Positions 1,829-12,577 of a stretch of DNA of 18,453 nt are shown here, piece by piece. Every line of letters starts with the position of its first letter. The stretch's first letter is position 1. The notes below the pieces were generated by a model, which worked only from the letters and a program-made list of their open reading frames with translations, was not told the DNA's origin and did not search any database. The translations under genes and the position numbers were made by a program. Source of the stretch: a bacterium (GTDB lineage Bacteria > Lindowbacteria > 2-12-FULL-62-27); contig JACQOF010000070.1 in NCBI GenBank assembly GCA_016202645.1, positions 1 through 18,453 on the forward strand. Direction: 5' to 3'.

Positions 1829-1838
1829 TGGTCTGAAT

Positions 1839-1945
1839 GTATCGGAGTATCGGAGTGTCGGAGTATCGGAGTAAGCCCGTGTTCGGGTTGCCGGGAGCAT
1901 GAGCCGCGCCGTCTCCGATACGCCGATACGCCGATCCTCCGATAC
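1839..1945. repeat. Inverted tandem-repeat hairpin (8-bp units) spanning the next gene's start
   Basis: The left arm has four 8-bp units: ATCGGAGT at 1841, 1849 and 1865, and GTCGGAGT at 1857. The right arm, 1912-1943, has four inverted units: TCTCCGAT, ACGCCGAT, ACGCCGAT and CCTCCGAT. Arms 1839-1872 and 1912-1945 can pair over about 34 bp with few mismatches, leaving a loop of about 39 nt (1873-1911). The start codon of the molybdenum subunit (1899) lies in this loop, and the right arm is translated as that protein's first residues. Element class unknown. Confidence 0.8.
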
Positions 1946-4175
1946 TTCCCAATTCAAATCTGTCGGCAAGAACCCGCCCCGCAAGGAATCGCGCGAGAAG
2001 GTTACCGGGAAAGCGAAATACATTGACGATCTGACGTTCGAAGGGTGTCTCTACGGAAAGACCGTCAGGTCGACCATCCCCCGCGGGAAAATCAAAAAAA
2101 TCACATTCGAGCCCGGCGTGCCATGGGAGGAATTCACAGTGGTGACCGCGAAGGACATCCCCGGGAAGAACGTCGTCGCGTTGATTGAGATGGACCAGCC
2201 CTTTCTGGTCGAAACGGAAATTCGCCACATGGCCGAGCCCATCGCGCTGATCGCGCATCCGGACAAGGGACTGGTCGAGAAGGCCCTGACGAAGGTGCGG
2301 GTCGAATACGAGGAACTGCCGGCCATCTTCACGATCGACGAGAGCCTGTCCGGGCGGAACATTCAGCGCGGCCGGGACAACGTCTTCAAGAAATATCATA
2401 TTCAAAAAGGCGACCCGGCGCCCGTGTTCTCCCGGCCGGCCATCGTTGTGATCGAGGGCGAGTACTGGACCGGCCCGCAGGAGCAGCTCTACATCGAGCC
2501 CAACGGCGTCGCGGCCGTCGCGACCCCCGATGGTGTGACTGTCTGGGGATCGATGCAGTGCCCGTTTTATGTGCAAAAGGGTTTGAAACCTCTCTTCAAT
2601 CTTCCGGACGACAAAATCCGCGTGATCTACTGCGTGACCGGCGGGGGATTCGGCGGCAAGGAGGAATACCCGACGCTTCCCGCCGCGCACGCGGCGCTCC
2701 TCTCCTGGAAGGCGGGCGGCCGACCGGTCAAAATCATCTACGACCGGATGGAGGACATGTGGGCAACGACAAAACGTCATCCGTGCCGGACGCGCGTCAA
2801 AACCGCATTCGCCAAAGACGGAAAACTCCTCGCCCTGCAGGTCGACGCGACCATGGACGGCGGCGCCTACCTGACCCTGAGTTCGGTCGTCCTTTCCCGC
2901 GGAACTCTTCATGCCTTCGGCCCGTACGCCTGTGATCACGTGACCATCGACACCCGCGCCGTCTTTACGAACTCTCCGCCCTACGGCGCCTTCCGGGGAT
3001 TCGGCGCGCCCCAGACGATTTTCCCGCTGGAACTTCACATGGACCGCGCGGCGGACCGGCTGGGCATCGAGCCTCACGAACTGCGCCTCAAAAATATTCT
3101 GCACAAGGGCGACACGATGGCGACGGGGCAGAAGATGGAAGACGAGATGGATATCGAAGGCATCCTGAAAAAGGCGATGACGGAGTCGCGCTACCTTGAG
3201 AAGCGGAAATCCCACCGCGAACACAACCGGACGGCGTCGCCCGTCAAGAAAGGCATCGGCCTATCGCTTTTTTTCCATGGCGCCGGATTCACCGGCAGTG
3301 GCGAAGTGTTTCTGGATTCCAGGGCGGGTCTGGAGATCACTCCGGCCGGGACTGTTCGGATTCTGACGGCCAACACGGAAATCGGCCAGGGATCCTTCAC
3401 CACCCACAGCCAGATTGTCGCGGAGGCCCTCCGGATTCCCTACGAGATGATCGAAGTCGCCCCGCCTGACACCGCGGTTGTTCCGAACAGCGGACCGACC
3501 GTCGCGTCCCGCACGTGCATGATCGTCGGCGAACTTCTCCGCCGCGCGGCGGATGACCTCCGGGACCTGCTCATCCGGTCCTCCGGCCTGTCGAACAACG
3601 GCTATGGGCCGGACGAGTTTCGCCGGGCGGCCAGCGCCCACGCCGAAAAAAACGGCGTCACCCGCGTCTACGCCAAATACAAGCCGCCCGCCGGGATTCA
3701 CTGGGACGACCAGACCTACACCGGCTCCGCCTACGGCGCGTACGCATGGGCTTGTTATGTCTGCGATCTTGAGACCGACCTGACGACGTATCAAGTCGAA
3801 GTCAAGGATTTCGTGGCGGTGCAGGAAGTCGGCCGCGTCATCCATCCCGTCATCGCCGGCGGCCAGATCGAGGGCGGCGTCGCGCAGGCGCTCGGCTGGG
3901 CCCTCTATGAAAATGTCGTCTTGAAGCAGGGCGTCATGCAAAACACCCAGCTCACCAATTACATCCTGCCCACCACGGCCGACACGCCGCCCATCCGCGT
4001 ATTCTTTTATGAGAACCCCTATCCGAACGGCCCCTACGGCGCCAAGGGACTCGGGGAACTGCCGATGGACGGACCCGCGCCGGCCGTCGCGTCTGCAGTG
4101 GCGTTTTCCTTGGGCGGCAAATTCATTTCGTCGATTCCCATCCTGCCGGAAAACATATGCGAGATTCTGAAATGA
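1899..4175 (+). CDS. Molybdenum hydroxylase, molybdopterin-binding large subunit (xanthine dehydrogenase family)
   Basis: This 758-residue catalytic subunit hydroxylates a substrate at the Mo centre, and electrons leave through the 2Fe-2S and FAD subunits. The substrate-entry (a/b hammerhead) domain is near residues 33-140. Cofactor-domain motifs follow: 'TGGGFGGKEEYP' (247-258), 'YGAFRGFGAPQ' (362-372) and 'EIGQGSFTTHSQ' (from 494). 'GAKGLGELPMDGPAPA' contains E720 at the position of the family's catalytic base. E255 and R366 appear to match the purine-orienting Glu/Arg pair of xanthine dehydrogenases, which favours a purine, but the alignment is by eye. Size matches E. coli XdhA. The only usable start is ATG 1899. 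It lies in a repeat hairpin and has no properly spaced ribosome-binding site, so about the first 17 residues are repeat-encoded. Confidence 0.93.
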   Translation: MSRAVSDTPIRRSSDTSQFKSVGKNPPRKESREKVTGKAKYIDDLTFEGCLYGKTVRSTIPRGKIKKITFEPGVPWEEFTVVTAKDIPGKNVVALIEMDQPFLVETEIRHMAEPIALIAHPDKGLVEKALTKVRVEYEELPAIFTIDESLSGRNIQRGRDNVFKKYHIQKGDPAPVFSRPAIVVIEGEYWTGPQEQLYIEPNGVAAVATPDGVTVWGSMQCPFYVQKGLKPLFNLPDDKIRVIYCVTGGGFGGKEEYPTLPAAHAALLSWKAGGRPVKIIYDRMEDMWATTKRHPCRTRVKTAFAKDGKLLALQVDATMDGGAYLTLSSVVLSRGTLHAFGPYACDHVTIDTRAVFTNSPPYGAFRGFGAPQTIFPLELHMDRAADRLGIEPHELRLKNILHKGDTMATGQKMEDEMDIEGILKKAMTESRYLEKRKSHREHNRTASPVKKGIGLSLFFHGAGFTGSGEVFLDSRAGLEITPAGTVRILTANTEIGQGSFTTHSQIVAEALRIPYEMIEVAPPDTAVVPNSGPTVASRTCMIVGELLRRAADDLRDLLIRSSGLSNNGYGPDEFRRAASAHAEKNGVTRVYAKYKPPAGIHWDDQTYTGSAYGAYAWACYVCDLETDLTTYQVEVKDFVAVQEVGRVIHPVIAGGQIEGGVAQALGWALYENVVLKQGVMQNTQLTNYILPTTADTPPIRVFFYENPYPNGPYGAKGLGELPMDGPAPAVASAVAFSLGGKFISSIPILPENICEILK

Positions 4176-4648
4176 CGGCGAAGATATCTTTCACCCTCAA
4201 CGGCAAACCCTGGACCGGCAATGTTCATCCCCTGAAGCGTCTCCTCGACACGCTTCGGGAGGACGCGGGACTCACCGGAACCAAGGAAGGCTGCGGCGAG
4301 GGCGAATGCGGCGCCTGCACGGTTTTTCTCGACGGGCAAGTGGTGATGAGCTGTATGGTGCCGACGTGCCAGGCCGAAGGAAAAAAAGTCACAACCATCG
4401 AGGGCCTGGTATCGGACGGCGACCTCCACCCCATGCAGGACTGTTTCATCCAGGAGGGCGGCGCCCAGTGCGGGATCTGCACGCCGGGCATGATCATGGC
4501 CGCCGTCGCCTACGCAAACGATCCCGACTCGGCCGAAGACATGCGCGAAGCCTTGGCCGGGAATTTGTGCCGGTGCACAGGTTACACGCGAATCTACGAG
4601 TCCGTCAAAAAAGCGATGGAGAAAATGAGCGTCTCCGAAATAAGATGA
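4172..4648 (+). CDS. Molybdenum hydroxylase, [2Fe-2S] subunit
   Basis: This 158-residue electron-transfer subunit carries two [2Fe-2S] clusters between the Mo centre and FAD. The plant-ferredoxin-type domain shows 'CGEGECGACTVFLDG' and a following C in 'VVMSCMVP'. The C-terminal helical domain shows 'QCGICTPGMIMA' and 'NLCRCTGYTRIYESV', so all eight cluster cysteines are present. Length matches E. coli XdhC and CoxS-type subunits. ATG 4172 is preferred because it makes a 4-nt ATGA overlap with the large-subunit stop, implying translational coupling. An in-frame ATG at 4157 would add five residues inside the upstream gene. Clearly part of the same enzyme complex as its neighbours. Confidence 0.95.
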   Translation: MTAKISFTLNGKPWTGNVHPLKRLLDTLREDAGLTGTKEGCGEGECGACTVFLDGQVVMSCMVPTCQAEGKKVTTIEGLVSDGDLHPMQDCFIQEGGAQCGICTPGMIMAAVAYANDPDSAEDMREALAGNLCRCTGYTRIYESVKKAMEKMSVSEIR

Positions 4649-4668
4649 ACCACGCACAAACATTCGCA

Positions 4669-4783
4669 CACGAACGGACACGAACCGGCACGAACGGACA
4701 CGAACCCTATCCATCCACGTTCACAGTTTTTTTAAATTCTCCGGCGTTTCGTGCTCGTTCGGGGTCGTTCGTGTCCGTTCGTG
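4669..4783. repeat. Inverted tandem-repeat hairpin (10-bp units) before the FAD-subunit gene
   Basis: The left arm has 10-bp units: CACGAACGGA (4669), CACGAACCGG (4679), CACGAACGGA (4689) and CACGAACCCT (4699). The right arm (4746-4783) has them inverted: TTTCGTG, CTCGTTCGGG, GTCGTTCGTG and TCCGTTCGTG. The outermost unit pairs perfectly over 10 bp and the inner ones about 7 of 10. The loop (4707-4745, about 39 nt) includes seven Ts in a row. The right arm ends exactly at GGAGG (4783-4787), the likely ribosome-binding site of the next gene. This fills the 150-nt gap between two genes of one operon. Confidence 0.8.
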
Positions 4784-4798
4784 GAGGATGTTTCTGAT

Positions 4799-5689
4799 AT
4801 GCGCAGTTATCTTGCTGAATTTTCAGTCATCAGCCCCCGGTCGCTGGATGAAGCCTTGTGGGCGCTGAAGCAGAGGCCGGCGCCGGCGCCGATTGCCGGG
4901 GGGACGGATCTGATGGTGCTGCTCAATGCCGGGCAGCTGCCGCCCGGCGCGTATCTCAACCTGCATTCGATACCGGAACTTCGGAGGCCCATCGAATTCG
5001 TGAACGGGGAAGCGTGTTTCGGCGCGCTCACCACGTACGCGGATGCGCGCCGTCATCCCGAAATCCGCAAGCGTCTTCCGATGCTGTGTCTGGCGGCGCG
5101 GGAGATCGGCGCCCTGCAGATCCAGTCCCGCGGGACGTGGGCCGGCAATATCGTGAACGCGTCGCCCGCCGCCGACGGCGTCCCCGCGCTCATGGCCTAT
5201 GACGCCGCGGTGGAACTTTCCTCCGCCTCAGGCGTCCGGTCGGTCGCGCTTGCCGATTTTTACTCGGGATACAAACAGACGGCCCGCCGGCCCGACGAGC
5301 TGGTGACTGCCATTCGAATTCCGGTTCCGGAGAAAGAGGCCGTTCAGTATTACCGGAAAGTCGGCACGCGCAAGTTCCAGGCCATATCGAAAGTTTTGCT
5401 GGCGGGGATCATGGTTCTGGGAAAAGACCGGCGCATAAAAAAAATTCGATTGGTTTACGCTAGCGTGATGCCCTACACCTACCGCGCCCGGGCTGTGGAA
5501 GCGGTTCTCGAAGGCCGGGTTCCGGATGGGGCCGCCATCAAGGCCGCCGTCGCCGCGCTTCGGAGCGAACTCAAACCCATCGATGACGTGCGGTCCACGG
5601 CCGCCTACCGCCTGCGGGTCGCCTGCAACCTCCTGGAGGAATTTCTGAGTGCTTCCTCCCCCTCAAGGGGGGAGGCAAGGAGGGGGTGA
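4799..5689 (+). CDS. Molybdenum hydroxylase, FAD-binding subunit
   Basis: This 296-residue flavoprotein subunit passes electrons from the iron-sulfur clusters to NAD+ or another acceptor. FAD-binding motifs are 'PIAGGTDLMVLLNAG' (31-45) and 'QIQSRGTWAGNIVNASPAAD' (108-127), a slightly divergent version of the usual 'TIGGN' loop. The C-terminal CO_deh_flav_C-like domain starts near 'YYRKVGTRKFQAISKV' (184-199). Size matches E. coli XdhB (about 292). ATG 4799 is chosen because GGAGG lies at 4783-4787. An upstream in-frame ATG at 4751 would translate the repeat arm and has no support. The last residues (SSPSRGEARRG) and the TGA stop at 5687-5689 lie in the next repeat element, so the original C-terminus may have been altered by it. 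Confidence 0.92.
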   Translation: MRSYLAEFSVISPRSLDEALWALKQRPAPAPIAGGTDLMVLLNAGQLPPGAYLNLHSIPELRRPIEFVNGEACFGALTTYADARRHPEIRKRLPMLCLAAREIGALQIQSRGTWAGNIVNASPAADGVPALMAYDAAVELSSASGVRSVALADFYSGYKQTARRPDELVTAIRIPVPEKEAVQYYRKVGTRKFQAISKVLLAGIMVLGKDRRIKKIRLVYASVMPYTYRARAVEAVLEGRVPDGAAIKAAVAALRSELKPIDDVRSTAAYRLRVACNLLEEFLSASSPSRGEARRG

Positions 5690-5754
5690 GCTGTTGCGTT
5701 GCCACGGCTATCTGAAAGTACCCCCCCTCCCATCCTCCCCCTCAAGGGGGGAGG
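5655..5754. repeat. Paired C/G-rich palindromes between convergent operons
   Basis: Two copies of a CCTCCCCCTCAAGGGGGGAGG-like palindrome lie in inverted order: 5655-5687 with its trailing AAGGAGGGGGT, and 5719-5754. Each copy can fold alone, or the two can pair with each other around a loop of about 31 nt (5688-5718). The element occupies the gap between the FAD-subunit gene and motB, which converge here. It could act as a bidirectional transcription barrier, but there is no T-tract. This type of CCTCCCCCTCAAGGGGG word recurs between genes in many bacterial genomes, from general recollection. Confidence 0.65.
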
Positions 5755-5794
5755 AGTTACCACCTCTGAAACTTCAACAGAGCCAGTCCCTGTC

Positions 5795-12259: not shown

Positions 12260-12293
12260 TCCATCAGCCCTCTAAAATATTGAGAACAGCAAT

Positions 12294-12365
12294 GCGTCCC
12301 AATGCGTCCCCGATGCGTCCCCGATGCGTCCCCGATGCGTCCCCGATGCGTCCCCGATGCGAACA
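12294..12365. repeat. 11-bp tandem array (GCGTCCCCGAT)n
   Basis: Five perfect 11-bp copies of GCGTCCCCGAT run from 12304 to 12358. A degenerate 10-bp copy precedes them (12294-12303) and a truncated one follows (12359-12365). One inverted, imperfect unit (GCATCAGGGA) occurs past the following hairpin at 12404-12413. The array lies between the redoxin lipoprotein stop and tRNA-Arg(UCU). There are no spacers, so it is not a CRISPR. The copies are identical, implying recent expansion or homogenisation. Confidence 0.9.
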
Positions 12366-12366
12366 T

Positions 12367-12402
12367 GCGTCATTTTCGTACTTCCCTGTACGAAAATGAC
12401 GC
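12367..12402. repeat. 15-bp perfect inverted repeat upstream of tRNA-Arg(UCU)
   Basis: GCGTCATTTTCGTAC (12367-12381) and its exact reverse complement (12388-12402) flank a 6-nt loop TTCCCT. With the neighbouring GATGCG/CGCATC words the pairing can extend further across a bulge. It ends 26 nt before the tRNA. A smaller palindrome GCCCAT-CC-ATGGGC (12417-12430) runs into the tRNA 5' end. It could be a terminator for the lipoprotein operon, a protein-binding site or a mobile hairpin. Confidence 0.85.
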
Positions 12403-12428: not shown

Positions 12429-12501
12429 GCGCCCGTAGCTCAGTTGGATAGAGCATCGGCCTTCTAAGCCGAGGGTCCCAGGTTCGATTCCTGGCGGGCG
12501 C
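12429..12501 (+). tRNA. tRNA-Arg (anticodon UCU)
   Basis: This is a complete 73-nt cloverleaf. The acceptor is GCGCCCG/CGGGCGC, the D stem GCTC/GAGC, and the anticodon stem TCGGC/GCCGA with loop CTTCTAA (anticodon TCT, reading AGA/AGG). The variable loop is 5 nt, and the T stem is CCAGG/CCTGG with loop TTCGATT. No 3' CCA is encoded. The first 26 bases differ from tRNA-Arg(GCG) at 763-835 by only one D-loop base and the last acceptor strand is identical, so the two are close paralogues or co-evolved isoacceptors. Confidence 0.97.
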
Positions 12502-12577
12502 GATTACAGGGATGTAATCGCCCCTGTTTCGGGAATTCGGCGTAGCCCGGAGGGCGGAGCCGCCGAGAACAGGGGCG
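12501..12577. repeat. REP-like nested palindromes after tRNA-Arg(UCU)
   Basis: The first hairpin, CGATTACA-GGGA-TGTAATCG (12501-12520), begins on the last tRNA base. The second, larger stem pairs CGCCCCTGTTTCGG (12519-12532) with CCGAGAACAGGGGCG (12563-12577, one bulge). Inside its loop is GCCC-GGA-GGGC (12545-12555). The composite separates the tRNA from the convergent antiporter gene. It may serve as a bidirectional terminator or be a REP-type dispersed element; neither side has a T-tract. Confidence 0.65.

Follow-up and report, generated by a model that had tools for sequence, protein, structure and literature searches.

Background

Facing pairs of heptamer or octamer arrays are found in unrelated bacteria, where they have so far been read as regulator sites or quadruplexes and where their spread is unexplained. 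In Geobacter metallireducens, paired 'global regulator binding sites' of classes 1-3 (site words GTTGCTYN, TCTCCGTS, and MTYCTGA) were reported along with elements made of four copies of the heptamer GGGACCG; insertion sequences were found inserted near class 1 sites, and binding of a global regulator (IHF/HU) to the paired sites was proposed by the authors (Aklujkar 2009, PMC2700814). In Xanthomonas and Nostoc, GGGNATC heptamer arrays (GGGAATC in Xanthomonas) show a preference for four units, and X. campestris has ~70 inverted pairs that converge (Rehm 2015, PMC4692102). The TAACTGA heptamer arrays of the Beggiatoaceae, on the other hand, have essentially no inverted pairs, one being recorded in ~170 sets (MacGregor 2015, PMC4679880).

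Here we analyse three sites with a comparable layout, which a preliminary description had put forward as a possible new class of intergenic element. Such a layout has already been published for Geobacter metallireducens (PMC2700814) and Xanthomonas (PMC4692102), and given these precedents the architecture must be regarded as known. The word sequences of the families described below did not occur in the literature searched.

Results

Three sites with inverted arms

The window (the whole stretch of DNA analysed, 18,453 nt) is contig C41 of a 2.9-Mb source genome, assembled in 146 contigs and 82% complete. Inverted arrays had been placed at 1839-1945, 4669-4783, and 5655-5754; all three are real and their coordinates proved right (Table 1). 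At site 1 (family F1), arms of 33 nt, 88% complementary and 41 nt apart, carry the tandem 8-bp words GTATCGGA (4.4 copies) and CCGATACG (3.9 copies). The 36-nt arms of site 2 (F2) are 83% complementary, lie 43 nt apart, and carry ACACGAACGG (3.8 copies) and TTCGTGCTCG (3.6 copies), the F2 word being CACGAACGGA, of 10 bp. At site 3 (F3) the arms are again 33 nt long, 76% complementary and 36 nt apart, and each combines the palindromic hairpin CCTCCCCC-tcaa-GGGGGGAGG with a tail rich in G; a tandem-word array is absent. Arms made of repeated words, as originally claimed for all three sites, are thus present at sites 1 and 2, but not at site 3 with its palindromic hairpins; the loops are short, as described, but measure 36-43 nt instead of 31-39 nt.

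Table 1. Coordinates of the three elements, and of the parts of the F1 element, in the window
Feature	Position	Strand	Content
F1 element	1832..1952		outer head TCTGAAT and its inverted counterpart, four GTATCGGA words, loop, four inverted words
F1 left arm	1839..1871	+	four GTATCGGA words in + reading
F1 loop	1872..1912		includes ATG 1899, predicted to start the molybdopterin-subunit gene (1899-4175)
F1 right arm	1913..1945	-	four GTATCGGA words in - reading
F2 element	4669..4783		~four CACGAACGRR words per arm (4669-4704 and 4748-4783), 43-nt loop
F3 element	5654..5755		facing hairpin units 5654-5686 and 5723-5755 with G-rich tails, of unlike type

The molybdopterin-subunit gene is predicted to start inside the F1 loop; its first codons (1899-1945) read through the right F1 arm, and the aligned 5' region of the gene differs in two relatives of the same family, G001 and G002. 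The stop codon of the FAD-subunit gene (5687-5689) is supplied by F3. The elements therefore appear to remodel genes, F1 giving a start codon and F3 a stop codon.

Two other features of the window were noted. Positions 12292-12402 hold 6.5 tandem copies of the 11-mer ATGCGTCCCCG and, after them, GCGTCATTTTCGTAC, an inverted repeat of 15 bp without mismatch; the two together lie shortly upstream of a tRNA gene (12429-12502). At 108-750, overlapping short genes were assigned by eye to a putative antitoxin (108-353) and a PIN-domain toxin (334-750).

One plan, several word families

Inverted word arrays exceed random expectation, as the preliminary description required. In a sample read by script (400 kb of the source genome and 340 kb of its relative G001), nine such loci were found in the 400 kb of the source genome against none in one order-3 Markov control, and under stricter conditions a scan detected 18 arrays that have an inverted partner, compared to none in two Markov controls. 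Further word families emerged in the source genome, namely AGGGAGAA (F4), CGGTAAC, AATAGCT, and TCAATAT. A single plan of ~four words, a short loop, and the inverted words is common to the GTATCGGA, CACGAACGRR, AGGGAGAA, CGGTAAC, AATAGCT, and TCAATAT families, which bears out the idea of an element defined by structure rather than sequence, with one plan realised in unrelated words.

Dispersal and empty junctions

F1, F2, and F3 are all dispersed families. BLAST of the sites placed F1 at ~34 and F2 at 6 positions in their own genome, and among the matches listed F3 occupies at least ~40 and F4 at least ~37. A strict three-word F1 pattern has 74 matches in the source genome, compared to none for a reversed control pattern, and none in 59 other genomes, two of the same family included. 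Synteny of the xdh gene cluster is kept in both family relatives, and all three elements are missing at the corresponding junctions of G001 and G002; the genes on either side of the F2 junction overlap each other in G001. Orthologous junctions, the comparison originally proposed, are thus empty in two syntenic relatives.

In other phyla the F1 word is mostly seen in single arrays, several of them with a 24-nt spacing, which suggests that the latter are coding repeats. Arrays of this word or a similar one face each other in a Nitrospirae MAG (L169), in CP070698 (L205), in a Planctomycetota MAG (L167), and in an Auribacterota MAG (L217). Two viral contigs also match the F1 word, and in both the inverted partner is absent.

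As judged with a simple codon-based gene caller, 23 of 30 arrays are intergenic though ~90% of the sample is coding, and at one locus (L076) the gap between two genes is nearly filled by an F1 element. This placement, in ~10% of the sequence, would suit paired sites that are bound by a nucleoid protein or global regulator and selected for gene control, and an identical architecture has been interpreted in this way (IHF/HU) in G. metallireducens. A regulator leaves unexplained, however, why the F1 word is missing from both family relatives, why at least six word families coexist in one genome, and why whole pairs with shared loops (see below) stand at unrelated loci. We regard regulator sites as an improbable primary explanation of the families, while regulator binding could be a secondary use of mobile elements.

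Polarity and unlike ends

F1 arms have exactly four words in most of 57 cases, with YTTGARA as the outer flank and GA(A)A on the inner side; F2 arms have four words as well, and F4 arms ~4.4 words of 8 bp. Loops range from 7 to 43 nt in F1 and from 14 to ~150 nt in F4. All 51 pairs scored are convergent (22 in F1, 19 in F4, 10 in F3), none of them being divergent, and unpaired arms also exist (12 F1, 16 F4). The two ends of a pair are unlike in 12 of 15 F1 pairs (inner base A versus T, p=0.018), in 12 of 17 F4 pairs (tag AGG versus AGT, p=0.07, a weak bias), and in all 10 F3 pairs; like pairs exist as well. Both p-values treat copies as independent and the null as even, which holds approximately. 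Since the two ends tend to be of distinguishable types, a pair is better seen as a two-ended unit than as a fold-back copy of one arm.

Origin of the facing arms

The preliminary description offered, as a rival to an element, a replication or repair process, for example template switching, acting at gene junctions. In such a process slippage would build the word arrays and fold-back template switching would add the inverted copy. Arrays do expand locally, to 14 words in one arm at contig C97, and words drift along one array of a Lentisphaerae MAG (L231), both in keeping with slippage. The inverted arm is a different matter: F1 arms are identical at 27.3 of 32 positions within an element and at 27.6 between elements (p=0.93), and the corresponding values for F4 are 29.0 and 29.35 (p=0.995). 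On this evidence a fold-back origin of the inverted arm was rejected. That arms match no better within than between elements speaks against template switching as the chief mechanism, and the identical words at dozens of loci, the lack of any divergent pair among 51, the unlike ends, and the loops shared by some copies all point the same way. For F1 and F4 the slippage and template-switching origin is largely refuted by the arm-identity tests, and we hold it to be extremely improbable overall.

Some F4 copies at unrelated loci share both arms and loop (87% identity over 107 bp, 83% over 119 bp). F1 loops are mostly unlike one another, and their cores exceed shuffles by ~4 SD. From the shared F4 arms and loops and the excess in F1 loop cores it follows that whole pairs have been copied, in at least part of the families.

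The same arms bear on a reading at the RNA level, as terminators or transcript stabilisers selected for their hairpin. Predicted folding of sites 1, 2, and 3 is strong (z = -6.6, -5.7, and -5.1), which speaks for such a function. An Rfam search, however, matched two tRNAs and nothing else, arm matching within an element does not go beyond the family consensus, and single arms of both F1 and F4 occur, which together make RNA-level elements a very improbable explanation.

Several observations concern the arrays themselves. In the L231 array the word changes stepwise, from GTGTACCA through GTGTATCA to GTGTATCG, which suggests how a word changes via mutation and local duplication. In the source genome (G000), the ends of contigs C45 and C97 fall within expanded F1 arrays of up to 14 words or close to them, and such arrays may break the assembly. 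The F4 loop at L073 (G000:C106, ~122540-122750) holds an apparent further hairpin repeat, CATTCCCGC...GCGGGAATCCAG, also seen near L051, L243, and L253; at L073 it is possibly a nested insertion.

Candidate mobilising enzymes

The source genome has 10 Y1_Tnp genes (TIRYT). The four Y1 proteins examined matched the model of REP-associated tyrosine transposases, below its curated cut-off, and three of the four matched Bac_DnaA_C (a DnaA-C-like HTH), one of them above the cut-off. Most Y1 genes are bounded by near-perfect terminal repeats of ~25-40 bp, often starting with GGGGTCA, in elements of ~930-1070 bp, and those of G001 and G002 resemble those of the source genome. These elements fit the TIRYT type of Di Nocera (PMC3733652), mostly subclass 2.1 of Quentin (PMC6006769).

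The inner part of their terminal repeats consists of two tandem 8-bp words: in 33 terminal repeats drawn from several genomes, lag-8 identity reaches 0.43, compared to 0.27 after shuffling (z=9.1). These words are not mentioned in the accessible parts of the TIRYT/TIRtron literature (PMC3733652, PMC6006769). Gene-less pairs of TIRYT ends (word, short loop, inverted word) are found at L069:17311-17376 and L085:9268-9365 in the source genome and at L164:5459-5511 in G001. One known kind of element therefore yields the very plan that was first noticed in the window. The pairs at L069 and L085 have a GGGGWSAS-type head and two 8-bp words, and thus qualify as non-autonomous TIRYT derivatives.

None of the F1, F2, F3, or F4 words was found at the ends of Y1 genes in the source genome, in G001 and G002, or in seven genomes that have F1-like arrays, an absence that is not final given a source assembly that is 82% complete. 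F1 and F2 lack the GGGG-type head that TIRYT ends carry, and the combination of a GGGGWSAS head with two tandem 8-bp words is absent from F1, F2, and F4 arms. In view of the lack of Y1 genes with F1-F4 words and of the GGGG head in F1 and F2, we do not claim TIRYT membership for the window's families and propose for them a TIRYT way of working only. Y1 genes accompany F1-like arrays in seven of seven genomes, which is not above the background of 41 in 60.

Short-word arrays also abut the terminal repeats in the flanks of Y1 genes at L057, L059, L062, and L066 (e.g. GGCATCAG, CCGTCAG, and AAAGCGGG). Within the 400-kb sample, none of these words makes up a dispersed tandem family.

An enzyme other than Y1, for instance a conventional DDE transposase acting on double-stranded DNA, could also move such mobile two-ended repeats (MITEs). 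Inverted ends are typical of DDE MITEs, and no cognate Y1 gene was found for the window's families. Against this, no target-site duplication was obvious by eye at aligned F4 copies, and it is for Y1 elements that tandem-word ends are demonstrated here; the relatives, being ~75% identical, do not define the target sites. We consider a DDE or other non-Y1 enzyme unlikely.

Discussion

The three sites are best explained as insertions of small (~60-150 bp), non-autonomous, MITE- or REPIN-like mobile elements with two convergent ends. An end of a word family comprises ~four words of 7-10 bp in fixed polarity, from an outer head through the words to an inner tag, and an F3 end comprises a hairpin and a tail. 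Such elements would move in trans, with the word arrays acting as multimeric recognition sites for a transposase that may work on a folded single strand. The best candidates for this role would be Y1/HUH enzymes of the TIRYT type, whose own ends and gene-less derivatives in this genome carry tandem 8-bp words. That the window's families are mobile two-ended repeats is very probable in our judgement. A Y1 enzyme as their mobiliser is a tentative proposal, somewhat short of an even chance; the TIRYT ends examined do not carry the words of the window's families, so that the mobiliser is inferred. For mobile two-ended repeats taken together with a Y1 mobiliser, the latter as the leading inference, we see the case for and against as evenly balanced.

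More broadly, one may imagine a widespread Y1/HUH-mobilised superfamily recognising tandem short words instead of a hairpin, with two words per end in autonomous members and ~four in non-autonomous ones, and with the word diverging along with each enzyme. We put this forward as a rather doubtful extension. If true, it would account for the facing word arrays known from Geobacter and from Xanthomonas as mobile DNA.

Comparison with described elements places the window's families close to several of them. As in MITEs, there are terminal inverted repeats, dispersed copies, and relatives with empty sites; no autonomous partner with the same ends was found among the Y1 genes searched. REP, REPIN, and BIME elements resemble them in having polar units, single or in convergent pairs, with variable loops, combining subtypes, and an intergenic position. 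F3 is the family most like these: its units are palindromic, and its listed sequences start with CCTCCC or CTTCCC, without a GTAG or CGTC tag. The arms of F1, F2, and F4, in contrast, are tandem words and not GTAG/CGTC-tagged palindromes, and none of the Y1 genes examined in the source genome, G001, and G002 is a cognate RAYT with F1-F4 words at its ends. Assignment of each word to a described REP or MITE family with a transposase, the outcome named beforehand as fatal to the preliminary description, did not arise. TIRYT/TIRtron elements (TnpAY1 subclass 2.1; Di Nocera 2013, PMC3733652; Quentin 2018, PMC6006769) share tandem words in their ends (two of 8 bp) and gene-less short-loop pairs, but have a GGGGWSAS-type head and two words per end, whereas F1 and F2 have four words and no such head.

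Among word arrays, the TAACTGA heptamers (PMC4679880) are likewise short, intergenic, and patchily distributed. The GGGNATC arrays (PMC4692102) share the preference for four units, convergent inverted pairs, and intergenic position; they differ in being a single, quadruplex-forming word family with generally no association with mobile elements according to the authors. F1 and F2 words have GG only and so do not provide the four GGG tracts of a quadruplex, and F4 words do have GGG. There is a further likeness to G. metallireducens (PMC2700814), which has several families in its genome and intergenic sites of 3-5 tandem words of 7-8 bp, with partners on the opposite strand at differing distances. 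That word number and length is matched by F1 (four words of 8 bp in most arms) and F4 (~4.4 words of 8 bp), F2 has four words of 10 bp, and F3 does not fit; opposite-strand partners with variable spacing are likewise seen here (loops of 7-43 nt in F1, 14 to ~150 nt in F4). The words differ, and the explanation given there is a regulator site. To these precedents the present analysis adds an interpretation as mobile two-ended elements and the observation that TIRYT ends are built of words. Facing arrays become readable as mobile units with two ends through their fixed polarity, the unlike types of their ends, the loops that some copies share, and the junctions found empty in relatives, and the tandem 8-bp words in TIRYT ends offer a testable class of enzymes.
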